Source of the DNA: Apostichopus japonicus
Lineage: Eukaryota > Echinodermata > Holothuroidea > Aspidochirotida > Stichopodidae
Reading direction: 5' to 3'
DNA length: 64,000 nt
Assembly: GCF_037975245.1 (NCBI RefSeq)
Contig: NC_092577.1
Coordinates: 17,756,398-17,820,397 of the forward strand
Shown here: piece by piece, positions 9,805 through 64,000 of the stretch
How the letters are laid out: each line of letters opens with the position of its first letter
Position numbering within the stretch: the stretch's first letter is position 1
Notes under the pieces: generated by a model
Told to the model about the DNA's origin: nothing
The model's database searches: none
What the model saw: the letters and a program-made list of their open reading frames with translations, nothing else
Program-made: the position numbers and the translations under genes

Positions 9805-10800
9805 ATGGCGAGTGCCCATCTGGAGGACTTAAGAACATTGTGCCGACTATGTGGCAGCGCAAAGATCATCCCAAGTGACAGTGCGCCAAAATCTAAACAG
9901 GGCTACCATGTATGGATATTGAAGGCATTGTCCGTAGATGTTAGTTTGGATGTTGGTGAAGTACACCCAGAATTTGTATGCCAGTGTTGTACGCTCAAAT
10001 TGCAAAGGTGGAAAAAAAAAATAAAGGCCAAAATTCTTCTGTCAATATTACATTGCAGCCATATGAGCCACATTCGGAAAATTGCACTTTATGCGAAGTG
10101 GCTGGAAGCACAAAAGAACACACTGATCTCCAAGGGTATTTTTTTTTTAAGAAGACTAGTGAGTTTGGAATGGTTTCTTGGATGAATGAGGGGCACTGCA
10201 TTGTTGTGGAACTAAAGAAATCCGGGGACTTGCATAATGAAGAGGATATGTGTCAATGAAAATGGTTCATGGGAGATGTATGTTTTAGGTGCACAGCTAA
10301 GCAAAGAAGATTGTGCACATTGCATGAGCCCTCTAGAAGAACTTCAGTCGGAAGGCAATGTTGAGAGTTTATTAACCAAAGTTAAAAACATTGGGATCTG
10401 CGAGGGAAATGGTGATGTGTTTGATGAAGCTGAAGTAAACACTCTGAAATTTAGGAACTTTAATGTTGAACAATATATAGCCAAGGATGGGAAAACATCA
10501 GTGACAGTCACACACAGTCAGTGTAAACTTTTCTGCAATCCATCAACCCAGAGATGTGATCTATGTAATCATTACAGAACTGCCTTGTATGTGAAGCGAA
10601 ATCGTTTACGTGGTACAGTCGGGAACCCAACGAACTTCACCTCACATGTACGGAATGACTTGCTTTCTTCCCCTCAGAAGAAAGTCAAACTCTTGAAAAG
10701 GAAGAAAGACAGTTTATGTAGTACAATTTCAAAGTTGGAAGACCAAATATTTCTAAAGGGAATTTTCATGAATGAAGAGGACTCCATGAAATTCAAATAA
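9805..10800 (+). pseudogene. P transposase N-terminal exon region: two Cys-rich zinc motifs
   Basis: Starts at an ATG (MASAHLEDLRTLCRLCG) after 'cctcaag'. A CxxC pair (CRLC), about 50 residues, then a second CxxC (CQCC) followed by a basic stretch recalls ZAD-type zinc domains rather than the THAP domain of classical P transposases. A run of ten A at 10011-10021 shifts the frame. Further on, CDLCNHYRTAL forms another zinc-like motif, followed by a Lys/Leu-rich coiled segment before the stop at 10798. The role inferred is DNA binding. The ZAD resemblance is loose. Confidence 0.6.
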
Positions 10801-16004: not shown

Positions 16005-16250
16005 GTGCTTTTTACGTGACCCGTCATACGGGATACAAAACGTCACGGCCAAACGGCACTACCAAACCATCCCATTCTTACAAACGAACCTCAGGTCAAG
16101 CGAGCCAAAAAAAAGTACATACGCTCACCGACCTGCAGAGACAAAACGCCCAACCCCCCACTGAAATATTAAAAAACTACAAAAGGACGACCAGCACGCA
16201 GCGAAACAAAACACCCTTCCCCAGCACACCACCGTCCAAAAAAGGCAGCC

Positions 16251-19200
16251 CTAGATAGACGGGCGAAAATCGCCTTCAACCTGAAGGCGAATGTCAGACT
16301 TCACCGCCTCCAGGACTGTCTGCCAACTGGCAAATTTCCCCCTAAAAACAACATCACATCTATTCCTCCAAATAAGTTTTTTTTTACAACAGAACAAACA
16401 TAAATAATACGCTGCAACACAGCAACGGAACAAACTGGAGGATCTAATCCATACAAAACAAAACCCTGTCCTACCGACCAGGAACGGTCTCCCGTTAAAC
16501 GGTCGGTCCAGGACTGAAACCACTCCCACAAGTTCAAAACAAAGGGGCAATGCCAAAAAACATGGGCAGTACTCTCTAAGCTGTCACAGCCGGTCCTCGG
16601 GCACAGTCCATCACCCAATCGCCAGTGATACCTTTTCAGATTGGTCACCAAGGCACCGTGTGCAATTCTCCATGCAAGGTCACGGAGCCTGCAACCATTC
16701 AGCCTTGAATGCACCGAACGCCATACTTCGACAGGATGACGTCCCTGTACAAAAATTGCATTCAAGGCCCTATCCCGCAACGAACTGTGAACGAGGGCCG
16801 GCTGTGACAGGTCAACAGGGGGCAACTCAATCAGAGCGGAGCAAATGACACGCACCGCCCTGTTTGGAGTACTACTATGCGGTTCTCTGTTGCTAAACAG
16901 CGCCGGGACCCATCGACGCAGGTGCAAACCGCCCCAAAAACGTACAAAATATGAACAAGGCAACCCTGGGTCAGTTACCGCTACAAACAACTGCTTAAAT
17001 AACAAGCAAGTTAACTTACTTCCCAGATGAACCACCCCTAACCCACCCTTCTCCAGTTTTTGGTACATTACCGCCCTTTTGACAAGCTCTGTACCACCCG
17101 ACCAAATAAATGAAAATATCGCTCTCTCCAACCGCACCAGGACGCGACGCGGAATTGGATACACCGCGCCCGGGTACCACAAGATGGGCGAAACAAAACG
17201 ATTAACTACGGTGACTTTCCCTAGGATCGAAAGCCAGCGGGTGCCAAAGGTTTCGAGCCTGCTCTCAAATACCTCAGCCCTCTCGCTCCAGGTGACATCA
17301 CCAGGTGCATCGTAGCCGAACCATATACCATTAATTTTGATATTGTGATCCGACCACGACGCACCGAATGGTAAGTCTCTGTATCTCCAGCTACCAAGAC
17401 GAGGGCCCTTTGTCTTTTCTGGATTCAACTTCGCCCCGGTAGCTCTCTCAAAAATAGATAAATCCTGCGAGAGTGCGCGAAAGGAGCCCAGACTCGAAAC
17501 AACACATGTCACGTCATCTGCATATTGAGCGCATTTCACTTTGGCACCCCCTGGCACAACGAATGGAACAAGTCTGGAGTCCCTTTCCAAAAGACGAGAG
17601 AGGGACTCGCTAAACAAAACATAAAGTAATGGAGACAGAGGGCACCTCTGGCGCACCCCCCTCTCTACGTTAAAAACCTCCGAACAAAACCCATTTACGA
17701 TGACAGAACTGAAACTTTCTTCATACAAAACAGAAATCCATTTACGAAAAACCGGGTGCAACTGAAACGTCTCCAATACGTTCATTAAAAAACCGCGATC
17801 CACCATGTCAAAGGCCTTCTGCTGGTCCAGAGACACCAATGCACATGGCAGATCACGCTCAATAACAAAGTCGGTCAAGTCGCGCATCAACCACAAGTTC
17901 TGCTGGATGCAATGACCCTTGACTGCACAAGTCTGGAGATCACCCACAAGATGCGGCATAGCCAGTGCAAGGCGGTTGCACAAAGCCTTAGCCAGCAACT
18001 TGTAGTCCACATTTAACAAGGTGATCGGACGCTTGTTACGGGGATCCAAGGAGTCCCCAGACTTGGGCAGCAAAGTAATCATGCCCATACGTTGACTTTG
18101 GTTTAACAGTCCGTTTTGGAAGGCGTCCTCGAAGACGGCTCTGATGTCGGGTCCTATTATTGCCCAGAAGGTTCGGTAGAACTCCCTCGGAAGCCCGTCC
18201 GAACCCGGGGACTTGCCATTCTTCATCTTCGAAAGCGCCTTCCAAAGCTCAACAGTGAATATTCCGCCCCCAAAATATCATTGACATCGTGGGGAACGGT
18301 TTCTGAGATTCCCCTCAATAAATTAGCCTGTGCCGACAAGTCGACATTGCCACGCGTAAACAAACTCGAATAATACTCTTTATATACGGACAATGCCGTG
18401 AGGGTCACTAACCACGGTCCCATCAGTAGCGCGCACAGACGGGACGCGTCTGTCACCTGCCGATGAGCTAACGGACTGGTAAAACCTCAGTGAAGGGCGC
18501 TCCTCGGCTTCCACCGCTTCGACACGGGCCCTGACGCGGGCACCGTGGTACTTTTCATCGAGATAAGTCTGCAAAGCGATGACAGCCGAAGGGTCGCCAA
18601 ACTTCACCTCCGCGCACAGCTTCGAAAAATGTTCTCTTCGACGCCGTGCGCGGATCACACAATACTGAATTGCGTAGCGTTTGATGCGCAACTTGACATC
18701 ATCCCACCATTGGGATGTAGAAGCAAAGGCCGGCTTCAATGTTTGCCATCCTTTGTACCTGGTCTCGAAACCCTGGCGGAACTCTGCCTCGCCAAGAATC
18801 CGACAGTTAAGCTTCCATAGGCCCCGCCCGATGGGGAAAATGGAAGGCAAAACAAAACGTGCTACCACAGTGTCATGGTCAGAGAGCGGACAGCTGAGCG
18901 TCTCGCAACCCGAAAATGTCAAACTTACGGGCGCATACACTCGATCTATCCTGGAGGCATCTTCTCCGTTAGGCCTCACCCACGTATACACCGTACTACA
19001 CGGGTGCATATGCCTCCAGACATCGGCTAAAAGGTGTGCCGAAGTGAATCTTTCCAATTCTGTGATCCCAGCGTCAGGACTAGCAGACACAGAAGCCCCG
19101 AGTCTGTCAAGACCCGAGTCTGGGACACAGTTAAAGTCTCCGACCATGACACATGGTGCACTACCAGGAACAAAGGAAGGCAGCGTGTTAAAAAATTCTC

Positions 19201-19558
19201 GTCTAGCAGAAGGCCGATTGGGAGCATACACATTGCAGAGGGAGATGTTACCCTGTGGATACTTGAAAAGAATGCAAACCAATCGGCCCTCGTGATCCGT
19301 CTCCACCCTAGTGGCACAACCCGCCTGACGAGGTGACAGAAGGATGACAGTGCCACAGGATGAAGACGAACCAAACGAAGCATGCAGCCCACCACCCCAC
19401 TCATAAGCCCATAGAGGGACATCTTCCAAAATATGTGTTTCTTGCAGGCAAACGCAGTCGACCTCCATTGAAATACAATATTGGAAAATGCGACTGCGCT
19501 TGCGATGATCCCTCATGCCATTCACGTTCAAAGTGGCAACTGAAAATGTATGGGCCAT
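16251..19558 (-). pseudogene. LINE A1 ORF2: endonuclease + reverse transcriptase, frameshifted
   Basis: Starts at an ATG 20 nt after the ORF1 stop (MAHTFSVATLNVNGMRDH). The EEP endonuclease has QETHI, VGDFNCVPDSG and SDHDTV, including the catalytic Glu, Asp and His. The RT follows in another frame from 18226 with motif A SLDQQKAFD, VRQRCPLSP (the usual RQG is RQR) and the YADD box. The C-terminal zinc-like motif is CPRTGCDSLESTAHVFWHC. Frame breaks lie near 18390 and 18270, between endonuclease and RT, and at the T run 16376-16384. An intact protein would nick target DNA and copy the element RNA there. Confidence 0.9.
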
Positions 19559-19578
19559 GAGAGGGCAATGGGGCAAAA

Positions 19579-20721
19579 CTACGCCGACGACGATTCTGTA
19601 AGCTTCAAGCGCGCTCTAGACGACATATCGTCGTCCGAGTCGTCACTTGAGGCCGACCTTTTTAGAGAGGGTTCCCCCATCTCGTCGTACCAGCTCGTCC
19701 CAGTGGCACGTTTTGGCTCGACGATCACCGAGCCCCCGGAGTCGCTGTCAGACAGAGCCTCCGGAGACCCGATGACCACCGAGTCCCCGGAGTCGCCGTC
19801 GGACAGAACCTCCGGAGAATCGATGACCACCGATTCTCCGTCAGACAAAGACTCCGGATCTGGCGATACCGGCGGCGGACTGGGGACGGAACTGGACGAG
19901 TTGATGGGGGAAGCTGGTGGAGACTTTCTCGGTGCGGGCACGGGGTTGGGGTCTGCAACGACGGGGGAGGGTGAACCAGGTGCAGGGGAGGGTAAAATCC
20001 CACCAGATTCCCCCTCCTCTCGTGAAGTACTAGGTGCGTCGGAACTTGACTTACCCCCACTCTTAGTCCTAGAGACATAAGAGGAGGGACAAGCTCGAAA
20101 GACATGTCCCTCCTTCCCACATAGTGAACACACAACCTCGTTTGGGCAAGCGGTGCTATCATGCCCAAGACGAAGGCAGCGCCCACATTTCTTGTTTGGG
20201 CAGCCCTTGGCTTCGTGCCCGGTCTCCCCACACCTGAAGCAGGTACGGGGCTGACCGGGATACCGCACGTGGGCTTTATGCCCTGCTATAAACAGGAAGG
20301 AGGGAATGTCCTGTTTCAGGTCGATCCGAACCTGTCGGTGCCCGTTCAACACCCTAGGGGCTTGTGCATAGGAGCACATTTTGGCAGCCTTGACAGCCCC
20401 GAACCGACCCAAAACCGTTGCGACAAGTTCCTGCCGCACCTCTAGTCCTACGTGGATGATAGTTACCCATACGGATCGCTCGTATGGAGTTACTGTCATC
20501 CCCTCGACGTTACTCAGCAACGTGACCCCTTTCTGACGGGCCACGTCACTGGTAAAACGTAAATCGTACGTATTACGACCCTGGAGAGCTTGCAAAGCAT
20601 CAACCTCTCCAGGCACAACAACACCCTTGCTCTTCAAAATACTAAAAACTTGCACCGGTGGAACAGCTTGTTCACCGGTGAACGACAACTTAACTATCCG
20701 AGAATCACGTCGCGATGCCAT
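19579..20721 (-). CDS. LINE A1 ORF1: nucleic-acid-binding protein with three CCHC knuckles
   Basis: About 380 residues, intact, from ATG (MASRRDSRIVKL) to TAG. An N-terminal RRM-like region of about 150 residues (VWVTIIHVGLEVRQELVATV) is followed by three zinc knuckles: CFRCGETGHEAKGC, CGRCLRLGHDSTAC and CSLCGKEGHVFRAC. A Pro/Ser-rich then Ser/Asp-rich tail has short repeats around 'DGDSGDSVVI'. It is the RNA-binding component of the retrotransposition particle. The stop lies 20 nt before the ORF2 ATG, a layout that favours reinitiation. I chose the internal ATG because the conserved MASRRDS/MAARRDS start is shared with the other LINE copies. Confidence 0.9.
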   Translation of the reverse strand: MASRRDSRIVKLSFTGEQAVPPVQVFSILKSKGVVVPGEVDALQALQGRNTYDLRFTSDVARQKGVTLLSNVEGMTVTPYERSVWVTIIHVGLEVRQELVATVLGRFGAVKAAKMCSYAQAPRVLNGHRQVRIDLKQDIPSFLFIAGHKAHVRYPGQPRTCFRCGETGHEAKGCPNKKCGRCLRLGHDSTACPNEVVCSLCGKEGHVFRACPSSYVSRTKSGGKSSSDAPSTSREEGESGGILPSPAPGSPSPVVADPNPVPAPRKSPPASPINSSSSVPSPPPVSPDPESLSDGESVVIDSPEVLSDGDSGDSVVIGSPEALSDSDSGGSVIVEPKRATGTSWYDEMGEPSLKRSASSDDSDDDMSSRARLKLTESSSA

Positions 20722-20940
20722 GATACCGAAGGTGGCTAGGCCACAGGGGAGTAACACAAAACAAACAAAAGACCGGATAGTGAAACAACAAACGATATAC
20801 GAACTGAGGAAAACACACGAACACAAGCTATCACACCCGCCTGGCGGGAAGTATAGCACAGCACAGTACAAAAACAGCTGTAACAGATGAAGAGCGAGAG
20901 CGAAAACACGTCCGCACTCCACGAAAGCCAACTGCCAACT

Positions 20941-33832: not shown

Positions 33833-35513
33833 GTGGAAAATCAAATGAAAATCAAAAATAATGGACACATTGTGCCAGAGATAGTTGCTCCCGGGCTAGA
33901 GGATGGTGCTTGGGTGGACCAATGGTCTGTAGAGGACATTAAGAAGGCGCAGCAGGGTGTTAACGACATCAGTCGAATGATAGGCGGGGTGGTTATTTCC
34001 AAGGAAGAGCCGCAGTGGTCACTCATTTCAGCTGAGAACAAGACTTTTAAAACTTACTGGGGTATGTGGAAGGTCCTTTGTCTCAGAAACGGTATTCTTT
34101 ATCGAAAATGGGAATCTGACTCGGGGAATGAGATCTCCTGGAAATTAGTGGTGGCTAGAAGCATGCGTAATGAGATGTCTTTGTTATATAGTAATGCCAC
34201 AGCTGGTCACCCCTAGGTGTTAAGAAAACTATGATGAGAGTACAATCTGGATTTTACTGGGCCGGATATCATAAGGATATAGAGAGATGGTGTCGGCAAT
34301 GGGAAATATGCTCTTCAAGGAAGGGTCCAATTAAATCTCATAGACACGTATGCAAATGTATGTGGTAGGAGCCCCTATGGAAAGAGTGGCCATGGATATA
34401 TTGGGACCCTTACCAGTAACCGACACGGGAAATGGGACTAAGTGGGCCGAGGCTTACGCGATTCCAAACCGGGAGGCAGTTATTGTGGCCAGAGTCTTTG
34501 TAGAACAGTTTGTGTTGAGGGTCGGCGTTCCCCTGCAGTTGCATACTGACCAGGGCCGAAATTTCGAGTCAAATTTGTTTAAAGAATTAGCACAGCTCCT
34601 TGGTATTGATAAGACTCGTATCACAGCTTTTCACCCCCAATCTGATGGCATGGTGGAGCGTTTTAACAGAACCTTAGAGGCAATGTTATCGGTCGTTATT
34701 TCGGTAAACCAACGTGATTGGGATGAATGCTTGCCCCATGTTACCATGGCGTACCCCTCCTCTATTCACGAGACCACAGGAGAGACACCCAGTGTAATGA
34801 TGTTACGAAGAGAGATGAATCTCCCAGTGGATCTTCTGGTACCCCCTTCCCATGTTGAAATTAGTTCAAGTATTAGCTATGTTACAAATTGGAAGAAAAA
34901 CTTACAAGAAAAACTTGGAAGAAAAACTGAAATGGGTTAAATCGAAACACATGCGTCATTTGAAAGGTTGCGTCCTGCTGTGACACCGAATAACGATGAG
35001 TGGCTAAATGAGGTTTCTTTGGCTTTTGGTACCAAGGATTTACCCCCTTCACCATTCGATCCGTTAGCTGCCCTCATGGAAGCGAGCGACAAAGTCGTGT
35101 GAGAACGCCCGCGCCTCAACGGTGGACTGCAGACCTATCGACCTTTCGTGTGGACCCAGTGATAGACGAGCGGCAAGCCCCTTCACATCACCCATTCAGG
35201 ATAGCTCTACACCTTCCCCAACCACTTCAACATCATCCCCTTCCACAGCATCGTCGGATTCAACTCTGGATGAGAAAGAACTAACCCGTCTGCGGAACCT
35301 GATGGTTACTTCACAGATTCTACTCACCATAAACGCGGAAGTCAAACACGTTGGTCTTGGAGTTATTTACAGGAAGGAAAGACATACCGTCCAGTAACCA
35401 AATGGTACAGTCATTACTACGGAGAAGGAGGGATTCGAGTTGCCGCAGCAGACCAAGAAACTTTTGATATACAAGTAATCCATAGAGATGCCCTCGATCA
35501 GGACTTGTGTTAA
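33833..35513 (+). pseudogene. Ty3/gypsy pol 3' remnant: linker, zinc finger, integrase
   Basis: 33833-34216 encodes the RNase H-integrase linker (KTYWGMWKVLCLRNGILYRK). 34217-34349, in another frame, holds the HHCC finger end (CRQWEIC). 34350-34940 is the integrase core with Asp16 (MDILGPLP), Asp67 (HTDQGRNFES) and Glu103 (VERFNRT), counted from the ATG at 34350. The Asp67-Glu103 spacing of 35 residues is canonical. Asp16-Asp67 is about ten residues short, and the junction DTGN/GTKWAEAY marks an internal deletion. Downstream frames to 35513 (FDPLAALMEASDKV; GGIRVAAADQETFDIQVIHR) look like a broken C-terminus. Reverse transcriptase is absent. Confidence 0.85.
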
Positions 35514-37084: not shown

Positions 37085-37580
37085 TGTGTCCCCATCGAAA
37101 ACTAGGCGGCATCTGCTGTTCCAGATGTGTCTCCTGATGACAGCGGCAAACAACAACAGCATATCCTTAACCCAGGTTGGGCACACAGGGGGCAACAAAC
37201 CATACAAAACAAAATCACTACTAATGGCCCACTGTGTGCAACCAATAACATCAATAACGAAGGCGTGAAACCATTCCCACACCAAACGTACAAAGGGACA
37301 CTCCAGCAAAAGGTGTTGCATAGTCTCGATGGCTTTACAGCCCACACGGGGACAAATTCCATCACCTAATCGCCACCTGACTAGGCGAAAATGGTTAGTG
37401 ATGAGGACCCCATGTGCAATCCTCCAAGCCAAGTCTCGGAGACGGCTATCTAGTGTCTTGCAACACACAGACCGCCACACATCTGGAGAGATGGCGGTCC
37501 GGCAAGCCGAAGGGCACACAGGCGCGAGCATTGAACGAAATGGTGGGTATAACACAGAGGGCCACGTTCAGCAGAACATG
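37085..37580 (-). pseudogene. LINE C: ORF2 C-terminal fragment of another Tx1-like element
   Basis: Minus-strand translation gives LRDLAWRIAHGVLITN, WRLGDGICPRVGCKAIETMQ and SSDFVLYGLLPPVCP, aligning with the LINE A ORF2 end (LRDLAWRIAHGALVTN, WRLGDGLCPRTGC) but clearly diverged. The zinc-like Cys/His motif is present. Both ends are truncated: no 3' hairpin or CACGTAAAAAGCAC tail and no RT. Because it is a distinct family, it is a candidate relative of the missing ORF2 partner of the B elements (inference). Confidence 0.8.
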
Positions 37581-38284
37581 TGGCCCACCCTCTTCTTTCA
37601 TTCTGTGAGTATGAGAATACTGTACATAATGAACCGCTTTTGCTTGATGGCCGTTGGCTCCCTCGTTTGAGCTCGTCCGCCCTTGTAAAAATGGATCTTG
37701 TTTTTAATTCCATCAGGATGTCCAGCCACCCTCTAACTAGATTCCTCCAGGAAAAAAGTGGGGTTGACAGTTTAGTCGCTGACAGTTCGACCCTGATACA
37801 GGTGGTACTGGTTTGACACGTTACCAGTAGCAGGTAAGACCTGACCTGTTAGTTGTAATAACACGTATAACCGCAATTAAATACGGATGAATTTTTGGTG
37901 GAATTTCCTGTGAATTTCATAAATAGTTCAGCCGTTCAAATGTGTCATGAACATTACGAATATTATGGTTGTACGTGTTACAAAAGATCAGTTGGAGCCG
38001 CAGAGTCTTCTTTGTGTTTGTTGGAGTCATTTATGGAAATCAGACTTCTATGACCTTCCTAATGAGTAATGAAATATGAGCAGAAACTTAACTGGGAAGG
38101 CCAGAGCTGCATAGCTCATTTGGTATAGCACAGGATATGTATCACTGAGTTTGGAACATTTGAATCCCGTTCTAGCTTTCAATTTCTTGAAAGAATAAAA
38201 GTAATTGATGTTGTTCGGTAAAAAAGTGAATTTATTTCAAAAGAAACATAATTATTGCATTCCTTTATATAGATGCATGCTGTG
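37581..38284. other. Non-coding, no gene seen
   Basis: AT-rich with short frames only. Confidence 0.45.
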
Positions 38285-38346: not shown

Positions 38347-38364
38347 ACATATGTTCTATGCATT
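38347..38364. repeat. TSD of element B1, left copy (18 bp)
   Basis: 'acatatgttctatgcatt' recurs at 40188-40205. The paralogous sequence near 59.09 kb has the uninterrupted site. Confidence 0.9.
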
Positions 38365-38670
38365 GTGCTTTTTACGTGCAAAGAAACGGACACGGACCAA
38401 AGGTCAACAAAACCAAAAACAATCCCAGTCTGTTTAACAACCACCAAAAACCCAACTGAAAACCCACAAACAGAAATCTCTCACTAACCCACAAATGTAT
38501 AAAATATAGCGCTTAACGTGACGTGAAAAGGACACGGACCCAAAGGCTAACAGAACCAAAACAATAAAGCTCCACAAACCAGCCCCCAAAAGCCAACACC
38601 AAACCACAAACAGAAAACCCCCAACCCATATTATGTAAGGACCACACAAACCCCCCACCCCACACATAAC
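38365..38670 (-). repeat. Tandem dimer forming the 3' tail of element B1
   Basis: Two diverged units of about 150 bp. Unit 1 (38365-38507) begins 'gtgctttttacgtg', then 'ggacacggaccaaaggtcaa'. Unit 2 (about 38508-38670) begins 'tagcgcttaacgtgacgtg', then 'ggacacggacccaaaggcta'. Both continue with 'acaaaccacaaacagaaa'-type sequence. The same arrangement is in B2. Confidence 0.8.
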
Positions 38671-38715
38671 AACTAACTAAATTTCCAAAATTCATCCGGG
38701 GGACAGGCTTGCGCA

Positions 38716-39993
38716 TTACCTGCGAAATTTTCCCAATACGGGTCTTTTCAAGCCCCTAACAGTATTTCCCCTTTTCTTACGAGGGAGCAGAGTTCTTAAC
38801 TCCTCGTCAACCTTGATCGAGTGGACCTCCCTGTCAGGAACAGGAGGTCCACTAGCGACCATCGTGTCCGGTATAGCGGCTGCGGGTAAGGTGGAAGGGC
38901 CACTCGAGTCAATGAGATCAGTGGCCTGTTTTGTCTCATCAAAGCAATCGGAGGACTCCTTAGCCACAACTAATAAGGCTGTAGTGCAGTCCTCCATTGG
39001 CGAGTCAGAATCTGGGCCACTTAATGTCTCTTGGGCCGGTTGACTCGGGGCCCGACTAGTATCACCGATAGCGGGCGTAGCTACCGGTGAACCAGTACAA
39101 GCGGCATCCTGCGCCGCGTGCCACTCCGCTAGTACCATCTCCGCCGTTTTGTCCTGCTCTGCCTCAGTGGGCAGGCTGGCAGTCTCGGCAAGTTCGATCA
39201 GGGGAGAGGTCGGACACGAAAGGGGGAACAGAGCCTCCATCGGGGCGCTAGTGTCGGACACTGGGGCGATGACAGGAGCATCATGTGGTACGGTGTCAGA
39301 GGCCGGGACAGGGACCGCTTCAACCACGCCCGTAGCCACTCTGGCGGCGTATGAGCGGTCTGGGCATAAACGGGCGAGATGGCCCGTTTTCCCACACGAG
39401 TTGCAAACGATATCCCCTTTACACTCGGCCAGGGTATGCCCAACCTGTAAACAGCGGCTACACCGCTTGTTCGGGCACAACCTGGCCTCATGCCCTTCCA
39501 GCCCACACCTCCAACAAGTGCGAGGCTGGCCCGGGTATGCAATGTGGGCCCTGTGCCCATTAGCCCACAAGGTAGAGGGGATATCGGACTTGAGTTCGAT
39601 TCTAACTCGTCTAGTCCCGGTCTTGACACCTTTACATTCAAGGAATTCCGGCTCCTCGTAGCCGGTCACTTTCCCAAAACGCCCCAGTGTCCGCACAACA
39701 ACCTGTTCAGACATGTCCAGAGGGAGATGGAGGACTGTCACCCACACCGAACTGTCATACGGTGTGACCTTCAGTCCCTCGACTCCCTCCAACACATGGA
39801 CGCCTCGGACGCGGGCAGCCTCCGAGGTAAACCGTACATCAAAACAATTCATACCCCGGAGAGGTTAACGCTGAAGCGCGTCAACCTCTCCAGGGACCTT
39901 TAAACCAACAGAACGCAAAACTTGTACGGGGACGACCTTAGCTTCCCCCGAAAAACTCAACAATACGATTTTGCTGTCACGGCGAGCCGCCAT
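38716..39993 (-). pseudogene. Element B1 ORF1, CCHC protein with one nonsense codon
   Basis: About 425 codons from MAARRDSKIVLLSFSGEAKV. The N-terminal RRM-like region (VWVTVLHLPLDMSEQVVVRT) is followed by three CCHC knuckles (CWRCGLEGHEARLC, CSRCLQVGHTLAEC, CNSCGKTGHLARLC), an acidic Ser/Pro-rich middle and a basic end (LLPRKKRGNTVRGLKRP). TAA at 39867-39865 replaces the AAA found in B2. A 9-nt in-frame deletion removes three residues after VPVQV. From the next Met (39852) the frame is open to the stop. It is homologous to LINE A ORF1 with the same knuckle spacing. Predicted role: RNA binding in a retrotransposition particle. Confidence 0.88.
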
Positions 39994-40187
39994 GACAGCT
40001 AGGGGTGTGGCAAAGCCACGCACCTATACACAAACCAAAACGAAACAAACCCAAAACACACAAACTACACTAAAACAAACTGTACACTAATGAAGGGCCA
40101 ACGTAAAAACACAATAAAGGTGTGGTCAACGAAAGGTGGAGAGCAGCCGGAAACACGTCCGCACTCCACGAGAACTGAACTGAACTG

Positions 40188-40205
40188 ACATATGTTCTAT
40201 GCATT
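40188..40205. repeat. TSD of element B1, right copy (18 bp)
   Basis: Identical to 38347-38364. Confidence 0.9.
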
Positions 40206-40448: not shown

Positions 40449-41220
40449 GCAAAGACAGCAGTTGTAGATGATAAGTCCTCTGATTCCTGCAGTAACCAAG
40501 TGGCAAATGAGGATTACTGGATCAACACTAAAGAGAAATCTGCAATTATGGCAGATGACGTCACTACAGACGAGAGTTCGGATGAAGCTGAATGCGATGA
40601 TGTTGATACCCAATCTGACAAGTGCAAAAAACAGACGTGTCGTGTCGTCGTCGTGTCGTCATCTAGCCGCAGACAAGCCAATAAAAGAGTTCGGAACAAA
40701 TGCAGTTACTGCCTATACTTGCTCTGAAAAACAAACCAAACTCCTTCGTCACTTTCGGAGGAAACAGCTCTGAAAATTCGGTTGCTGAAGTTATGGCACT
40801 AGAAGAAAGTGACAGCACTGCTTCACAATGGCTTTGGTCTGAGCTTCGTAATAAGGGCAACCATGCGCACAACAAGGAAGTTCTTTAAGCGAGAGCAGCT
40901 GACTTCATTGTTAGAAAAACGCCAGTATATGGCACATGAAAGGCCATTGAAGACTACGCTCTGTGCAGTGACTGTCTTGGGTACTTCAACACTCTCTCCT
41001 TGTAGATACACAAGAAAACCTGCTTGGAGAGAGACAGTCCTTGAAAGGCAGCCAGCATATGAAGGAAGGAAGAAGTTTGCTCCCTTTGAAGTATACAATT
41101 CATGACCAATTGCGAAAAGTTGTGGATCGGATGATTCATGATGATGTGACTGTTATTGCAAAAAATGATCAGTATATATTAACTGTAGGTCAAAATGAAC
41201 CCAAGGATGTTATATAGTGT
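40449..41220 (+). pseudogene. Family Z zinc-finger gene copy, decayed
   Basis: After 'ggcgatag' an open frame reads AKTAVVDDKSSDSCSNQVAN, an acidic linker (DESSDEAECDDVD), a basic stretch and NKCSYC. After a frame change, LLRHFRRK completes a C2H2-like finger. Then follow SSENSVAEVMALEESD, ELRNKGNHAHNKEVL and (another frame) ALCSDCLGYFNTLSL with a His/Cys pair. The order finger, 'LR-KGN--HN--VL', second finger 'C--CLG-F' recalls an unnamed protein family widespread in invertebrate genomes. Frames break near 40725, 40885 and 40930. Related pieces lie at 49261-49490 and 59021-59440. Element B1 is inserted in its upstream part. Confidence 0.6.
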
Positions 41221-41466: not shown

Positions 41467-42560
41467 TAAGCATATCTTCGGTACCTGTATCACACACAAA
41501 AGTTTGATAACAATTGGTTTAGCGACTTGTATTTTGGCTAAAAAATCTAAAACAAATTTCAGTTTTCCTGAACTTTATATCTCTGAAGTTTCATTGCCAA
41601 ATAAGGTTCCTTGGAAGTTTTGACAGTAAAGATTTATTAATTGGAAATAGCCGCAATCTAAAGGGTCTATTTTGTTGTTCGTAGTTTTCGCTAGTTTATA
41701 GGCTAAATTAGCATATATCTAGTCCAACTTGGTAGGGTATCGTTTATACACCTGTGTTTCGAAGTATATAAGTATATTGTGTAATAGCATTCAGGCTTGA
41801 GATCCAGAACTGGTATCAATATTCTACGCACAAAGTTATAAGGTTCAGGCCGTGTATACCGCCTAGGGCGAAGTATTATCATATCAGTTTGACTACGCTA
41901 TAGACAAGAGCACATGGCGTCTGTCATAGGGGAAGCAGTGGGAACTTTTAAAATTACACCGCAACCTTGCCAAATAACATAATAAACGTATTTAAGACTT
42001 GGAGCATCCTTCTTGGAAACCAGCCCAACGCATATGTCCTGGACACCGTTAGCCATCTTGCATGGTAAGATTTAATTCTTTAATTTTAAACGTATATGTT
42101 ACTGTTATATTATGCCGATTTTGAATTCTACTAGAAGTATAGTTACATGACCGTCCTACAGACGTGAATGAAACATATTACACAGAGTAGTGGAATGCAT
42201 TAATTAAAGACTTTAACATATTAATATATTACAACTGAAGCAATTACAATCGAAGTGATGCCTTGCTGTTAATTGGAAGTTACCGTATGAAGTTGCTAAA
42301 TATTAACTTAATAAATTAGGAAACGTATATGATTCTGTTAGTTGAATGCAACAAGTACCTGGTTTATTACATTGAAACTTATAGGCAGCTATTCCGTGAT
42401 TCATGTCTGGCCCGACGCGCTACCAGGAACAGACCTGAACGTGGCCCCATATATATGCTGGTGGACCCTGGAGTATACACGCGACGTTTTTACCCACTTT
42501 GAACTACGGATAGTATGAACATTATGGTTTAACGTTGCAAGGGGATAGAAGGCTGAAACT
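41467..42560. other. Non-coding, no gene seen
   Basis: AT-rich. The right edge abuts the 5' end of LINE A2; no TSD for that element was recognised here. Confidence 0.45.
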
Positions 42561-42752
42561 AGTTGGATTTCGTGGAGTGCAGACGTGTTTTCGCTCTCGC
42601 TCTCCATCTGATACAGCTACTATCTCACCTTACTGTACTGTGCTATACTTCCCGCCAGGCGGGTGTGTGCGTTTGTCGTATATCGTTTTCAGTTTAAACC
42701 TGTGTTTAGTTTGTTTTTGTTACTCCTCTGTGGCCTAGCCACCTTCGGTATC

Positions 42753-43897
42753 ATGGCATCGCGTCGGGATTCGAAAATTGTAAGTTGACCTTCACCGGTG
42801 ACCAAGCGGTTCCACCGGTGCAAGTTTTTAATATTTTAAAGAGTAAGGGTGTTGTTGTGCCTGGAGAGGTTGATGCTTTACAAGCTCTCCAGGGTCGTAA
42901 TACGTATGATCTACGTTTTACCAGTGACGTGACCCGGCAGAAGGGTGTCACGTTGCTGAGTGGGGTTCAAGGTTTGACAGTTACTCCATACGAACCTTCC
43001 GTAGGATTAGAGGTGCGTCAAGAACTTGTCGCAACTGTTTTAGGTCGGTTTGGGGCTGTCAAAACGTGCTCCTACGCACAGGCCCCTGGGGTGTTGAACG
43101 GGCACCGACAGGTTCGGATCGACCTCAAGCAGGACATTCCCTCCGTCCTTTTTATTGCCGGGCATAAAGCTCACGTGCGATACCCCGGTCAGCCCCGTAC
43201 CTGCTTCAGGTATGGGGAGACCGGGCACGAAGCCAAGGGCTGCCCAAATAAAAAGTGTGGGCGCTGCCTTCGTCTTGGGCATGATACCTCTGCTTGCCCA
43301 AGCGAAGTTGTGTGCTCACTCTGTGGGAAGGAGGGACATGTCTTTCGCGCTTGTCCCTCCTCTTATGTCTTTATGACAAAGAGTGGGGGTAAAGCAAAGG
43401 CGCCAAGTTCTGGCGCACCTACTGCCCCGGAGGAAGCTCCACGCAAGGAGGGGGAACCGGGTGAGGATTCACTCTCCGCACCTCCTTCACCCTCCCCCGT
43501 AGTTGCAGACCCCAACCCCGTGCCCGCACCGAGAAAGTCTCCACTAGCTTCCCCCATCAACCCCGTGCCCGCACCGTCTCCACCACACAGCGAAGCGGAC
43601 ACGGGGTCTCCAGCAGCTTCCCCCATCAACCCGTCCAGTTCCGTCCCCAGTCCGCCGCCGGTATCGCCAGATCCGGAGACTCTGTCTGACGACGACTCGG
43701 TTGTCGGGTCTCCGGAGGCTATGTCTGACAGCGACTCCGGAGGCTCGGTGATCGTCGAGCCGAAACGTGCCACTGGGACGAGCTGGTACGACGAGATGGG
43801 GGAACCCTCACTGAAAAGGTCGGCCTCAAGTGACGACTCCGACGACGATATGTCGTCTAGAGCGCGCTTGAAGCTTACAGAATCGTCGTCGGCGTAG
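42753..43897 (+). pseudogene. LINE A2 ORF1
   Basis: Starts MASRRDSKIV, then a 1-nt loss near 42780 shifts the frame; the frame is open from 42785 to TAG. In the first zinc knuckle the second Cys is Tyr (CFRYGETGHEAKGC), which should abolish metal binding there. Knuckles two and three are intact. Relative to A1 there is a deletion after TVTPYE (VWVTIIHV missing) and an expanded Pro/Ser-rich tail with 'NPVPAP' repeats. Otherwise as LINE A1 ORF1. Confidence 0.88.
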
Positions 43898-44830
43898 TTT
43901 TGGCCCATTGCCCTCTCATAGCCCATACATTTTCAGTTGCCACCTTCAACGTCAATGGCATGAGGGATCATCGCAAGTGCAGTCGCATTTTCCAATATTG
44001 TATTTCAATGGAAGTCGACTGCGTTTGCCTGCAAGAAACACATATTTTGGAAGAAGATGTCCCTCTATTGGCTTATGAGTGGGGTGGTGGGGTGGTGGGC
44101 TGCATGCTTCGTTTGGTTCGTCTTCATCCTGTGGCACTGTCATCCTCCTGTCACCTCGTCAGGCGGGTTGTGCCACTAGGGTGGAGACGGATCACGAGGG
44201 CCGATTGGTTTGCATTCTTTTTAAGTATCCACAGGGTAACATCTCCATTTGCAATGTGTATGCTCCCAATCGGCCTTCTGCTAGACGAGATTTTTTTAAC
44301 ACACTGCCTTCCTTTGTTCCTGGTAGTGCTCCATGTGTCATGGTCGGAGACTTTAACTTTGTCCCAGACTCGGGTCTTGACAGACTCGGAACTTCTGTGT
44401 CTGCTAGTCCCGACGCTGGTATCACAGAATTGGACAGATTCACTTCGGCACACCTTTAAGCCGATGTCTGGAGGCATATGCACCCGTGTAGTACGGTGTA
44501 TACGTGGGTGAGGCCTAACGGAGAAGATGCCTCCAGAATAGATCGAGTGTATGCGCACGTAAGTTTTAAATTTTCGGGTTGCGAGACGCTCAGCTGTCCG
44601 CTCTCTGACCATGACACTGTGGTAGCACGTTTTGTTTTGCCTTCCATTTTCCCGATCGGGCGGGGCCTATGGAAGCTTAACTGTCGGATCCTTGGCGAGG
44701 CAGAATTCCGCCAAGGTTTCGAGACCAGGTACAAAGGATGGCAAACATTGAAGCCGGCCTTTGCTTCTACATTCCAGTGGTGGGATGATATCAAGTTGCG
44801 CATCAAAAGCTACGCAATTCAGTATTGCGT

Positions 44831-45613
44831 GACCCGCGCGCGTATTTTTTTTTCCTAGGAGGGTTAGGGGCAATTATCATATATAGGCGTATCCAGACTC
44901 TCGCGCATGCGTGTTACTCGTGGCTAGTATTAGTACATACAGTGTGTGCGACGCGATTCAAGTTTTGCATATGCGTTCATGTAGCGATGGAGACCTGTTC
45001 GACTGACACCCAGATTTTAGACACAATGTACGGATTTCATATGTTGTCATCAATGTGCGCGACGGATATTAGTTTAATGGTTTGGTTAATGTTAATCTGC
45101 TAGCCTACATTACCTGCATTTCTAGCTTCATGGTAAACTTTAAGGTTACGGTAAACTTTAAAATTCTATACATGATACTAATATAGTAGGCCTACATACA
45201 AAATTAAGCCTGCTTTTATGAACTATCACTATCAGTTCTATCAGATATTACTATCAGATATTGCATCACCAGCCGATACGCAGACTATTAGTCACCTACA
45301 TTAGCCACAACACCTCCATAAAATTAACAATTGAAGTGACGATTTCATCGCGCTTTAATTTGTATTTCTTTAGCCTGCGTCCCATCACTTATATTATTCA
45401 ATTCTCACTTGGTAATCCTTGGCCAAAAAGCAAACTGCATTACGTGTAAAACTGTACAGCGGAGATCTACTGCTTTGTACAGCGTACATAGTGCCCACAC
45501 GTGTATTACAGCGATCAATGAGTAACGCGTGTGTATGAGTAACGGGTTTGGATACGCCTATATATGATAATTGCCCCTAACCCTCCTAGGAAAAAAAAAT
45601 ACGCGACCCGCGC
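44831..45613. repeat. 9-bp TSD pair of the MITE (44831-44839 and 45605-45613)
   Basis: 'gacccgcgc' occurs on both sides. LINE A1 has the corresponding site once ('gatccgcgc'), proving duplication on insertion. Confidence 0.92.
44840..45604. mobile_element. 765-bp MULE-type MITE with 56-bp perfect inverted repeats
   Basis: The left end (44840-44895) starts GCGTATTTTTTTTTCCTAGG and the right end is its exact reverse complement for 56 bp. The 9-bp TSD is the hallmark of the Mutator/MULE superfamily. The interior is AT-rich without a transposase, so it depends on an autonomous MULE elsewhere. Perfect terminal repeats suggest a young insertion. Confidence 0.9.
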
Positions 45614-58520: not shown

Positions 58521-59020
58521 CTGAATAGAGAATATTTTGCGATCGCTGTGTTTTTAAAGGAGGAGTTTGTATGAAGGAGTATGGACGAGTACAGTTTGTT
58601 CATTAGGCCTATCGCACTACTTTTGCGATTATGAAACTTGTATGTCGATTGACACTTAATTTTGGTGAAACACCAAACTTTTTGATCAGAATTTGCAATG
58701 AATCGCACATAGCGTCGGTATTGATGATTTCATTTACTTCGGAAAGAAGCCTTCCCCAATTCTTTGAAATCACGATGAAATGATCGATCGTTCCGCAACG
58801 TAATTCACGCTAAAACGATAACATTACGATAGTATAAAGTGCCAGTGAAATGATAAACACACTATCACGATATTACGACCACGATGCGACGCCCAATATT
58901 ACGTTAGGTATTTGGTATAGGCGTAATGGAAACGATATTACGATAGACTCCTCATATTTTGTCACGATACACGATGCCACGGCCGATTTAATATGGGCGG
59001 TACTGTAGATTCATGCTGTG
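58521..59020. other. Non-coding, no gene seen
   Basis: From 58780 to 58985 'acgatattacga'-type words recur irregularly. No coding signal. Confidence 0.45.
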
Positions 59021-59440
59021 ACAATTGTTGCATGATGAAAGTTGCACAAGAGGATATCCTTACGTTGAAGGATTCAATATTTCTGATACGTATGTTCTAT
59101 GTATTTGCATTTTTTATGCACTTGTGTTAATGCCCGAGTGAATAACGTGCAGTACACTTTCAAAACATGGCTTTATAGGCCAAAACTTGGGAAGAATGTC
59201 CGATTTCATGTAAAGTTTTCAAAACAGTAATTGCATATCTTGTATGTACTGCAGATTAAAAGACTGTCAATATCAAGTGCAGAAAACTGCTCATGCTACA
59301 ATTTCACAAACTGTTATATTACAATGCGTGCAGCACTTGTAGATGATGATTCCTCTGATTTCTGCAGTAACCAAGTGGAAGATGTGGACTGGATCAACAC
59401 TACAAAGAAAACTTCTAGTCCAGTCAATCTATGATTTAAC
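59021..59440 (+). repeat. Family Z copy containing the empty B1 site
   Basis: 'ttcatgctgtgacaattgtt' through 'ggattcaatatttctgatac', 'gtatgttctatgtatttgca' and 'ttatgcacttgtgttaatgc' matches 38275-38364 joined to 40206-40260 without the B1 element. The coding part (VDDDSSDFCSNQVEDVDWIN) aligns with the family Z frame at 40460-40540, then diverges. Confidence 0.85.
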
Positions 59441-60641: not shown

Positions 60642-62391
60642 ATGGACGTGTGCGTCATCTGTCACATTTCTTTTGAAACTGACTGCGACCCTGAAGTGAC
60701 ATTGCAAAAGAAGTTCAAGGTATTATTGAGGCAAGTCAAGAACGTGGTGATGAACTTACCATATTTGTTGGACAGAGGGTTGACCAAAAATGTCGTAAAC
60801 GATATTGCAATAAACGATCCATTGCTAGCGATTTGAAACCAAACGTAGAATGCGGTTTAAAGCGTAAATTACGTTCACAAACTGAACAGTTTTTGTTTGG
60901 TGAACACTGCTTTTTTGTGGACGAAATGCTGAAGTGAACGGTAAAAAAGGTCATCAGGCTTACCCCGTCAAAACCTTTCAATTTCAAAGGAAAATTGAGT
61001 CGGCATGTGTCGACCGCGGCCACGATGACGAATGGGCTAAACAGGTGAAAGCCAAATTTTCACTTGTGAGCGATTGACATGCTGCAGATGCAATCTATCA
61101 GCAGGCATGCAGCGTTAATTTCACAACACACAAGCAGCTTCCAGTCTTTTAAAGGTAATTCTAAGAATAAACGAAGCCCTGGACGTCCCGAAGATGAACA
61201 TCAAGCAGCCGCATTTATGAGAGTTGCGGAATATTTGAAAGAAAATGACGTACAAGCTACTCTAACCGATCTAGTCGAAAAAATTAGAGTTTTGTCCGAA
61301 TCCCTATAGCACTGTATACATGAGGAAAAGGCTACAAGATCACTTTTGGTGATACAATTTGGATAACTGAGGTTAACGGCAAACCAAACGTTGTAACATT
61401 CACAAAGACAGTATGGTCAAGTTTGCAAGAATTTTCAAAGAGACTACAGCATCAAGACGCATTTTCCGAGAAGTTGTTTATAGTAGAGGCTGCTGCAAAA
61501 CTTATCAAAAGCAAATGGAAGCATTGCATTTGAGATATCCATCCTCATTCAAGTGTGTCGTCAACTGAGCACAATCTTCACTTTATTCCTGACAGTTTGA
61601 AACTACTCTTAAACACTTATGGTTGAAAAAGAGAATGATGTGAAAGATTCTTCAATTGGACATGCCCTCATCCAAGCTGCACGACCCAGGGTTTTGATAG
61701 CTCCTCTACAAATTGCATTAGGAATACAAATGCATCACCACTTTGGATCTCGGTTTCTAATAGATACTTTGAATAAACTGGGATTCTGTTCTGAAGTTGA
61801 AAGGTATGAATCGAGCGCAGCGGCAAGCCAAGGAATCCATATGCCACCGATTGGTACAGACCATTTTGTGCAATACGTTGCGGACAATGTGGATCATAAT
61901 GTTATGACCCTTGATGGGCACTGTTCCTTTCATGGTATGGGTATCATTGCGGGAATCACTCCAGGCATCATAAACCAACGAGCTGTAGAAAGGTTATCGG
62001 TAACTACCAAAGAACTCACTACCATATCAACATATTTTATTATACGCGAAAACAGAGTATATTGCCGGAACTGAGTTTCAAAGAAATCAGAGATCTTCAC
62101 TGCGATGATCCAACGTGGAAGCTGGATTTGTTATGGAATGCGCCCCATCAAATCATCAGTTCCAGGGTGGTCAGGTATGATTCAGATGATGCAACAGGGG
62201 GAACACCCAGGGAAATCGTCTGTCTTCTTTTTTCCAATGATAGACATGAATCCGAGTGATAACTCATGCATATATTCTACTTTGAAGTTTGTATGCAATG
62301 AAGCAAGACGACACAACACAAAGGCTATTCTTACTTTCGACCAACCCCTGTACTGGAAAGCTTTAATGATTGTACTTAACTGTGCTTTTTA
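60642..62391 (+). pseudogene. Decayed member of a widespread unnamed invertebrate ORF family, cut by B2
   Basis: Starts MDVCVICHISFETDCD (CxxC). After a shift it reads IIEASQERGDELTIFVGQRV, CRKRYCNKRSIASD and a second Cys motif. Then follow AADAIYQQACSVNFTTHKQL, SPGRPEDEHQAAAFMRV and, after stops, RVLIAPLQIALGIQMHHHFG, GSRFLIDTLNKLGFC, VADNVDHNVMTLDGHCSFHG, PMIDMNPSDNSCIYSTLKFV and TFDQPLYWKALMIV. I recall this motif order from many unnamed, probably transposon-derived, invertebrate proteins; I cannot name the family. At least five frameshifts or stops are present. Coding similarity ends exactly where B2 begins (62392). Confidence 0.7.
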
Positions 62392-64000
62392 CGTGCAAAG
62401 AAACGGACACGGACCAAAGGTCAACAAAACCAAAAACAATCCCAGTCTGTTTAACAAGCACCAAAAACCCAACAGAAATCTCTCTTACCCACAAATGTAT
62501 AAAATATAGCGTTTAACATGACGTGAAAAGGACACGGACCCAAAGGCTAACAGAACCAAAACAATTAATCTCCACAAACCAGCCCCAAAAACCCAACACC
62601 AAACCACAAACAGAAAACCCCCAACCCATATTATGTAAGGACCACACAAATCCCCCACCCCACACAAACAACTAACTAACTCCAAAATTCATCCGGGGTA
62701 CGCCGTCCCGATAGCAGACGACAGGCTTGCGCATTACCTGCGAAATTTTCCCAATACGGGTCTTTTCAAGCCTCTAACAGTATTCCCCCTTTTCTTACGA
62801 GGGAGCAGAGTTCTTAACTCCTCGTCAACCTTGATCGAGTGGACCTCCCTGTCAGGAACAGGAGGTCCACTAGCGACCATCGTGTCCGGTATAGCGGAAG
62901 CGGCTGCGGGTAGGGTGGAAGGGCCACTCGAGTCAATGAGATCAGTGGCCTGTTTTGTCTCATCAAACCAATGGGAGGACTCCTTAGCCACAACTAATAA
63001 GGCTGTAGTGCAGTCCTCCATTGGCGAGTCAGAATCTGGGCCACTTAATGTCTCTTGGGCCGGTTGACTCGGGGCCCGACTAGTATCACCGATAGCGGGC
63101 GTAGCTACCGGTGAACCAGTACAAGCGACATCCTGCGCCGCGTGCCACTCCGCTAGTACCATCTCCGCCGTTTTGTCCTGCTCTGCCTCAGTGGGCAGGC
63201 TGGCAGTCTCGGTAAGTTCGATCAGGGGAGAGGTCGGACACGAAAGGGGGAACAAAGCCTCCATCGGGGCGCTAGTGTCGGACACTGGGGCGATGACAGG
63301 ATCATCATGTGGTACGGTGTCAGAGGCCGGGACAGGGACCGCTGCAACCACGCCCGTAGCCACTCTCGCGGCGTATGAGCGGTCTGGGCATAAACGGGCG
63401 AGATGGCCCGTTTTCCCACACGAGTTGCAAACGATATCCCCTTTACACTCGGCCAGGGTATGCCCAACCTGTAAACAGCGGCTACACCGCTTGTTCGGGC
63501 ACAACCTGGCCTCATGCCCTTCCAGCCCACACCTCCAACAAGTGCGAGGCTGGCCCGGGTATGCAATGTGGGCCCTGTGCCCATTAGCCCACAAGGTAGA
63601 GGGGATATCGGACTTGAGTTCGATTCTAACTCGTCTAGTCCCGGTCTTGACACCTTTACATTCAAGGAATTCCGGCTCCTCGTAGCCGGTCACTTTCCCA
63701 AAACGCCCTAGTGTCCGCACAACAACCTGTTCAGACATGTCCAGAGGGAGATGGAGGACTGTCACCCACACCGAACTGTCATACGGTGTGACCTTCAGTC
63801 CCTCAACTCCCTCCAACACATGGACGCCTCGGACGCGGGCAGCCTCCGAGGTAAACCGTACATCAAAACAATTCATACCCCGGAGAGGTTTACGCTGAAG
63901 CGCGTCAACCTCTCCAGGGACCTTTAAACCAACAGAACGCAAAACTGAAAAAACTTGTACGGGGACGACCTTAGCCTCCCCCGAAAAACTCAACAATACG
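62392..64000 (-). mobile_element. Element B2: ORF1-only LINE, 5' end beyond the window
   Basis: Same 3' terminus (GCACGTAAAAAGCAC), tail dimer and ORF1 as B1, almost identical over the shared length, but inserted at an unrelated site. It differs by small indels: about 20 nt extra after ORF1, and small deletions in the tail. The 5' end and right TSD lie outside the window. Confidence 0.9.
62734..63996 (-). CDS. Element B2 ORF1, CCHC protein, start outside the window
   Basis: Open for 420 codons to the window edge, with no nonsense codon where B1 has one. It begins in this window at LSFSGEAKVVPVQVFSVLRS; by comparison with B1 only about ten residues (from MAARRDS) are missing. Three CCHC knuckles and a basic C-terminus are as in B1. 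An intact ORF1 in an element with no ORF2 suggests selection for ORF1, or very recent insertion. Confidence 0.88.
   Translation of the reverse strand: MLSFSGEAKVVPVQVFSVLRSVGLKVPGEVDALQRKPLRGMNCFDVRFTSEAARVRGVHVLEGVEGLKVTPYDSSVWVTVLHLPLDMSEQVVVRTLGRFGKVTGYEEPEFLECKGVKTGTRRVRIELKSDIPSTLWANGHRAHIAYPGQPRTCWRCGLEGHEARLCPNKRCSRCLQVGHTLAECKGDIVCNSCGKTGHLARLCPDRSYAARVATGVVAAVPVPASDTVPHDDPVIAPVSDTSAPMEALFPLSCPTSPLIELTETASLPTEAEQDKTAEMVLAEWHAAQDVACTGSPVATPAIGDTSRAPSQPAQETLSGPDSDSPMEDCTTALLVVAKESSHWFDETKQATDLIDSSGPSTLPAAASAIPDTMVASGPPVPDREVHSIKVDEELRTLLPRKKRGNTVRGLKRPVLGKFRR

Follow-up and report, generated by a model that had tools for sequence, protein, structure and literature searches.

Mammalian HAL1 elements are LINE derivatives that carry ORF1 only, depend on a full-length relative, are flanked by target site duplications (TSDs) and have more than one origin, as described in two reports (PMC5322556, PMC5753468). 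SINEs that have their 3′ end in common with a partner LINE are also described in the first of these (PMC5322556). For HeT-A from Drosophila telomeres, the parts listed are a 5′ UTR, Gag and a 3′ UTR (PMC3357415), and a further report describes the element as codependent with TART and TAHRE and as retrotransposing onto chromosome ends (PMC2881922). Besides HAL1 and HeT-A, no ORF1-only LINE was named in the literature that we searched, coverage of which was partial. HeT-A is without a reverse transcriptase (RT) and belongs to the Jockey clade, SINEs are short and non-coding, and in SART1 the sequence UAAUG is reportedly used for translational coupling. An ORF1-only LINE with a working ORF1 raises the question of why ORF1 is kept if the partner supplies everything in trans.

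The window analyzed here is a stretch of 64,000 nucleotides from Apostichopus japonicus (positions 17756398-17820397 of contig C17), and the genome searched comprises 671.6 Mb in 35 contigs. In the following, E denotes an ORF1-only family, B1 and B2 its two copies in the window, A an ORF2-bearing relative and F a second deletion family, and the genomic loci that were read out are numbered L001-L086. The mitochondrial contig among those searched, C35 (16,099 bp), has a COX1 that reads well with AAA as Asn, followed by ORFs read as ND4L and COX2, which points to an echinoderm. COX1 pieces with TGA codons are found in addition on contig C29 (31219 bp), for example at L088, which makes this a second mitochondrial or numt contig. 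The features of the window that relate to E are located as follows.

38365..40187, minus strand: B1, one complete E copy, bounded by TSDs and with ends common to other copies
38347..38364, no strand assigned: TSD copy at the 3′ end of B1, an exact 18-bp match to 40188-40205
40188..40205, no strand assigned: TSD copy at the 5′ end of B1, an exact 18-bp match
39994..40187, minus strand: 5′ leader of B1, with CAGTT repeats first and then CGTGGAGTGCGGACGTGTTT
38716..39993, minus strand: ORF1 frame of B1, for an RNA-binding-type protein with CCHC knuckles, with a stop at codon 43
39865..39867, minus strand: in-frame TAA (codon 43) in ORF1 of B1, absent from B2
38714..38718, minus strand: TAATG, where the stop of ORF1 overlaps the start codon of ORF2, kept although ORF2 itself is lost, from the alignment with A
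38365..38713, minus strand: 3′ tail of B1, a scrap of the ORF2 end followed by a 3′ UTR in which one segment is partly duplicated and which closes with GCAC
38366..38433, minus strand: terminal 68 nt of B1, 97% identical to the 3′ end of A
37088..37604, minus strand: fragment of A ORF2, 96% identical
16006..20938, ends approximate, minus strand: element L, a related autonomous LINE with ORF1, endonuclease and RT, its ORF1 46% identical to that of E
59006..59307, plus strand: paralogous empty site of the B1 insertion, aligned with the joined flanks and one TSD
62381..64000, minus strand: B2, the second E copy, running past the window end; its full version is L021
62366..62380, no strand assigned: TSD of B2, 15 bp and unlike that of B1, from flank comparison

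The 18-bp TSD of B1, ACATATGTTCTATGCATT, is identical on both sides and fixes the ends of the element where the first-pass annotation had placed them. Read from the ATG at 39993, the ORF1 of B1 is broken by the TAA at codon 43, and this copy is itself dead; it is also shorter than B2, by 9 nt within ORF1 and by 21 nt within the tail. The CCHC match of ORF1 is to Pfam PF00098, three CCHC knuckles were counted by eye in the aligned ORF1 sequences, and no endonuclease (EN) or RT domain matches were found inside B1. The contents previously assigned to the element, a CCHC ORF1 with neither EN nor RT, are thus as annotated, but the ORF1 had wrongly been taken to be intact. The structure of ORF1, as predicted from three sequences of the window, is of poor quality (mean pLDDT 44.6), the first ~150 residues being predicted better and the C-terminal half falling below 50 pLDDT.

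The ORF2-bearing relative A was found by means of a CACT-ending variant of the E 5′ pattern, and seven places were read at 5.5 kb. A is ~5.2 kb long, and in one copy (L043) EN and RT lie within one open frame, in an open stretch of 1153 codons with an EN domain match of 2.4e-19 and an RT domain match of 2.7e-33. The first-pass annotation had suggested the Tx1 group for this lineage; among solved structures, the best match of A ORF2 is human L1 ORF2p (residues 19-862, 1.3e-75), ahead of R2 (7.4e-21). L041, L042, L043, and L046 are 92-93% identical to E up to E position 1352, a stretch that includes the leader and most of ORF1, and 82-83% identical over the end of ORF1, after which ORF2 follows. 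The last 68 nt of E are matched at 97% in L041, L043, and L046, and the 3′ UTR preceding them at 81-84% in L041 and L043; no match to E was found in this preceding part of the L046 3′ UTR, and no tail match to E in the fetched stretch of L042. E corresponds to A minus ORF2, with a gap that in the alignment starts immediately 3′ of TAATG, just after the ORF2 start codon, and extends to ~16 codons before the ORF2 end. The TAATG overlap is present in both E and F, and most of the listed A junctions have TTATG at this place. Apart from these 68 nt, the E tail resembles that of A at only ~81-84%, so that the A copies sampled are related to the element from which E arose but are not that element.

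The leader sequence CGTGGAGTGCGGACGTGTTT of B1 is present also in A and in the autonomous LINE of the window, element L, which has its 3′ end CACGTAAAAAGCAC in common with E. Element L was considered as the closest relative of E and rejected, since at the DNA level the two have in common just a 5′ motif of 21 nt and 14 nt at the 3′ end, and A is far closer. The LINE family of 16006-20938 is found also at 42560-48250 and as pieces between 27011 and 29645; the first two are near full length and in opposite orientations, and the first of them ends like E. Elsewhere in the window, an ORF at 9727-10185 is a possible RAG1-like gene or relic, with weak matches in Pfam to zf-AD and, at 5.7e-6, to the RAG1 importin-binding region, and the long frame at 28498-29064 is a degenerate 11-bp tandem repeat.

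A 26-mer spanning the point where ORF1 meets the tail in E was found at 156 genomic sites at ≤3 mismatches, and the corresponding A junction at 47 sites at ≤3 mismatches, 4 of which belong to family F; the reversed-pattern control gave 0 in both cases. The E junction is thus ~3 times as frequent as the A junction among copies long enough, the A count excluding 5′-truncated A copies. The first-pass annotation had named a majority of copies with ORF2 between ORF1 and tail as an outcome that would speak against an ORF1-only element, and among copies long enough this is not what was found; ORF2 is absent at this place from the E copies read, but an ORF2-bearing form does exist in A. A 611-nt window query with a piece of A ORF2 gave 202 first-look candidates, and A copies of all lengths may be as many as those of E.

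We consider it likely that E is a non-autonomous LINE, formed when an L1-superclade element of the A lineage lost its ORF2 by deletion, and that it has spread by means of the ORF2 protein of A. An E RNA with 5′ leader, ORF1 and 3′ end still in place would be transcribed and then translated into its own ORF1 protein, and this protein would coat the same RNA, acting in cis. The ORF2 protein made by A, which is the likely present helper of E, would recognise the 3′ end common to A and E through its RT, the terminal 68 nt of E being the presumed recognition site. Target-primed reverse transcription of the E RNA would then give a full-length insertion with a TSD. Of this account, the data show the deletion, the ends common to A and E, numerous independent insertions and a lowered share of amino-acid changes among the ORF1 variants that were inherited.

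A DNA search with B1 gave 610 first-look candidates, and 40 of them were scored. Among these best 40 of 610, B1 included, 38 span 1750 or more of the 1822 nt and are 91-100% identical, and for 35 the start lies ≤7 nt and the end ≤3 nt from that of B1. The exact junction 26-mer is present in 78 among the 100 matches listed of the 156 E-junction sites. A search with the E tail gave 524 first-look candidates, and of the best 40, 33 adjoin a listed E junction and 7 do not, the E-junction list behind this comparison being incomplete (100 of 156). The 5′ end pattern gave 167 matches; among the 100 listed, 59 have one of the listed E junctions downstream, 12 are followed by a junction of the A or F type, and 29 by neither.

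Sixty E copies were analyzed together, consisting of L001-L039 from the search list (where L021 is B2), B1, and 20 copies with an intact 5′ end (L067-L086). This sample is not random; among the 100 listed 5′ ends it includes 54, and among the 78 exact junction sites 50. An open frame of 415 codons or more is present in 32 of the 60 copies, in 30 of the first 40, which are mostly the best-scoring ones, and in 2 of the 20 further copies, and the small number of open frames among the latter implies that many E copies are dead. Among the 32 open copies, three (L027, L031, and L032) are broken near codon 40, and a fourth, L039, is truncated. In addition, 16 loci with older E-type copies were read (L040, L045, and L053-L066), most of them fragments, and L044 is a 5′ piece. 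Eight of the older loci were used in the dN/dS comparison between E and A, and six in the tree and, uncounted, in the 60-copy alignment; L061 and L064 were left out as badly aligned.

TSDs were assessed in 54 of the 60 E copies, six being left out for a missing end. A TSD of at least 10 bp is present in 33 of the 54 and one of at least 8 bp in 37; among 1063 shuffled flank pairs from different copies, none reached 10 bp and 1.2% reached 8 bp. The long TSDs differ from one E copy to another, and in copies with clear TSDs the element mostly ends in GCAC or GCAC(AC)n directly before the TSD. At the 5′ ends the number of TTCAG units is variable, for example in L009, L012, L070, L078, and L085, and the same ends contain filler that repeats target sequence, as if slippage or template jumps had finished the start.

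The second window copy, B2, is present as annotated and 95% identical to B1 over 1640 aligned positions, but the match begins at 62381 and not at 62392. Its full version, L021, has an open ORF1 of 430 codons and a 15-bp TSD, GTTAAGTACAATCAT. Since this TSD differs from the 18-bp TSD of B1, the two copies are independent insertions, as had been proposed, and their origin in one segmental duplication, named as the alternative, is rejected. The joined flanks of 37 copies were also compared with the window and eight loci, and four of them match across the site (L005, 83%; L015, 87%; L026, 81%; B1, 87-88%), the match of B1 alone being inspected base by base. The stretch 59006-59307 is an uninterrupted paralogue of the repeat into which B1 was inserted; the B1 flanks, joined with one TSD, match it at 266 of 303 positions (88%) with no break at the site. 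This unbroken alignment is direct evidence that the whole ORF2-less B1 unit arrived by a single insertion. With 156 E-junction sites, common ends in 35 of the best 40 copies, TSDs of at least 10 bp in 33 of 54 and an empty site, the ORF1-plus-tail form is indeed the mobile unit, as inferred in the first-pass annotation from two copies.

A second deletion of ORF2 was found in family F, represented by L047-L050 on contig C17, which has leader and ORF1 pieces in common with A. These loci were considered as the ORF2-bearing parent of E and rejected, being without ORF2 and having another junction. The F deletion starts ~64 nt further into ORF2 than that of E and ends ~6 nt beyond it. A pattern for the start of the F ORF2 relic gave five matches at ≤2 mismatches, four of which are L047-L050, and ORF1 is decayed in all four F copies read. 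Because the breakpoints of E and F differ, ORF2 has been lost at least twice, with nearly the same 3′ stretch spared both times. The last ORF2 codons and the 3′ UTR may be needed by the RT, and the two deletions may in this way mark the part of the RNA needed for copying.

Two ORF2 deletions with breakpoints within ~64 nt and ~6 nt of each other are also what might be seen if E copies were made repeatedly from A transcripts, by splicing or template jumping, with no E lineage as such, and the F junction would fit either GC-AG or a microhomology of 3 nt. However, at least 78 of the 156 E-junction sites match the junction 26-mer exactly, E copies have differences in common from the four A copies read, and a GT-AG pair flanking the E junction was not found in A when looked for by eye, for which reason splicing was rejected as the origin of E. 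We therefore regard repeated formation from A transcripts as highly improbable, and an E lineage of its own, derived by deletion, as the better account.

The ORF1 tree contains 37 rows, corresponding to 21 of the 60 E copies, 6 older E-type copies, 4 A, 2 A3, and 4 F. A, A3, and F each form one side of a branch, the F rows being a group of their own (100/99) in which L047 is less than half filled. The E rows mostly stand together, with the E-junction copies L054 and L055 beside F and the E-type copy L040 alone, at modest support, and a single E clade was not rejected by an AU test on this 37-row tree (p=0.254). E may have originated before the sampled A groups separated, RNA recombination or template switching may have taken place, or the tree may be weak at this point.

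Selection on ORF1 was examined in two ways. Between the commonest codons of E and A (40 E and 4 A copies), dN/dS is 0.54 over ORF1, 0.136 over codons 1-220 and 0.915 over the rest, so that the low dN/dS anticipated from the first copies holds for the N-terminal half but not for the C-terminal half. Near-fixed differences between E and the four A copies amount to 1 nonsynonymous and 5 synonymous in the N-terminal part, and to 31 and 12, respectively, in the C-terminal part, and the C-terminal half of E ORF1 looks unconstrained. Private changes in the 60 E copies comprise 200 nonsynonymous, 15 nonsense, and 91 synonymous (215:91), close to the neutral expectation of 0.697, 0.031, and 0.271. Changes common to at least three E copies are 26 nonsynonymous to 28 synonymous against 215:91 for private ones (Fisher p=0.0026), in a test that, like those that follow, counts non-independent changes from related copies; duplicated copies would add neutral shared changes and hence weaken the signal rather than create it. 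In the N-terminal 220 codons, the RNA-binding half, the shared changes are 10:16 against 123:51 private (p=0.0030), and in the C-terminal part the shared changes are 16:12, which is not significant (p=0.27). Changes in exactly two E copies (50:28) fall between the private and the shared classes, those in at least six copies (n=12, 7:5) are too few to tell, and the shared-versus-private test on 40 copies gives p=0.03. For 52 shared changes the base could be compared with A, and in 39 the A base is the commoner allele; these changes therefore probably arose within E. They are 18:21 overall (p=0.0035), 8:11 in the N-terminal part (p=0.018) and 10:10 in the C-terminal part (p=0.12). As the inherited changes are poorer in amino-acid change than the private ones, these counts suggest that the ORF1 of E was probably needed while E spread.

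E could also be a passive passenger, its ORF1 translated but dispensable and intact through youth, with the RNA moved via its 3′ end as in a SINE. The 28 of 60 E copies without a 415-codon frame and the lack of constraint in the C-terminal half of ORF1 would agree with this, but the N-terminal dN/dS against A of 0.136 would not, nor would the finding that shared changes are poorer in amino-acid changes than private ones, also when the allele of A is the commoner. We hold a dispensable ORF1 to be unlikely, and favor an ORF1 that served the spread of E.

Nearly all sampled places of E and A fall into six blocks, one on each chromosome concerned, at 16.3-17.7 Mb on C7, 13.1-14.7 Mb on C11, 21.0-21.2 Mb on C12, 4.1-4.4 Mb on C15, 26.3-30.9 Mb on C16, and 15.4-25.7 Mb on C17. 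Together they total 18.4 Mb, or 2.7% of the genome. The blocks contain 97 of the 100 E junctions listed (of 156), 46 of the 47 A or F junctions, 100 of the 100 5′ ends listed (of 167), 39 of the best 40 matches to the tail, and 39 of 40 to the A ORF2 fragment; because it was these very places that defined the blocks, and the lists are limited in length, only the contrast with control sequences is evidence. The integrase core at 34350-34940 (rve, E 1.6e-6, just under the Pfam cut-off) is probably Ty3-like, with dispersed relatives. Used as a control, it gave 31 matches, of which the 19 long ones were counted, 4 of them in the blocks with the query's own place included; the short matches gave 3 of 12. 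A second window repeat, likewise dispersed, had 3 of 40 matches in the blocks, again with the query's own place counted. A third control, 40850-41112, gave three sites, all in the C17 block, which are too few for a control and show no sign of dispersal. For a 15-mer matching the 3′ ends of LINEs related to these, 524 sites were found, and the 100 listed, which run from C1 to C11, likewise accumulate on C7 (22) and C11 (55).

With 97 of the 100 listed E junctions in six blocks, the copies might have been multiplied by segmental or tandem duplication within a few chromosome blocks and not by retrotransposition. Against this stand the TSDs of at least 10 bp in 33 of 54 copies, which differ among copies, and the matching empty sites of four insertions, and such a course of events is so improbable that we give it almost no weight in comparison with retrotransposition of E. 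A sequence-specific target was considered as the cause of the clustering and found unsupported, the TSDs being unlike one another by inspection. Since the TSDs are without an evident common sequence, chromatin, or survival in poorly recombining DNA, is the more likely cause of the clustering than sequence targeting. A more far-reaching reading, which we put forward as doubtful, is that E is a long-lived ORF1-only lineage in which ORF1 is selected for cis action on its own parasitic RNA, and that the shared ORF1/ORF2 machinery steers insertion, independently of sequence, into a few chromatin domains, with a single block on each chromosome concerned, a chromosomal niche that helper and parasite would then share. 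The confinement of the sampled A and E copies to six blocks is a second puzzle on LINE targeting, and a testable one.

One genome here contains a likely helper (A), a parasite (E), and an independent deletion (F), which are young enough for selection tests branch by branch. The same young set would also suit a trans-complementation assay in which an action of ORF1 protein in cis could be told apart from one in trans.

Compared with the known systems, E has a feature in common with SINEs in that the last 68 nt are shared with A at 97%, and differs from them in encoding ORF1. With SART1 it shares, as judged from the sequence alone, an ORF1 stop that overlaps the start of ORF2, reading TAATG in both E and F. 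E differs from HeT-A in that its insertions are interior and have TSDs, and are not attachments to chromosome ends. The closest likeness is to HAL1, since E has kept ORF1 and lost ORF2 relative to an identifiable full-length LINE, A, and since the short form itself has multiplied, with TSDs. In contrast to HAL1, E is not derived from mammalian L1 but from a relative of A, its ORF1 has CCHC knuckles, its 3′ end is GCAC(AC)n and not poly(A), the overlapping TAATG is retained together with a remnant of the ORF2 end, and the sampled copies are confined to a few chromosome blocks. The analogy with HAL1 that was drawn at the outset is thus one of mode of life: E works like mammalian HAL1 and is not HAL1.
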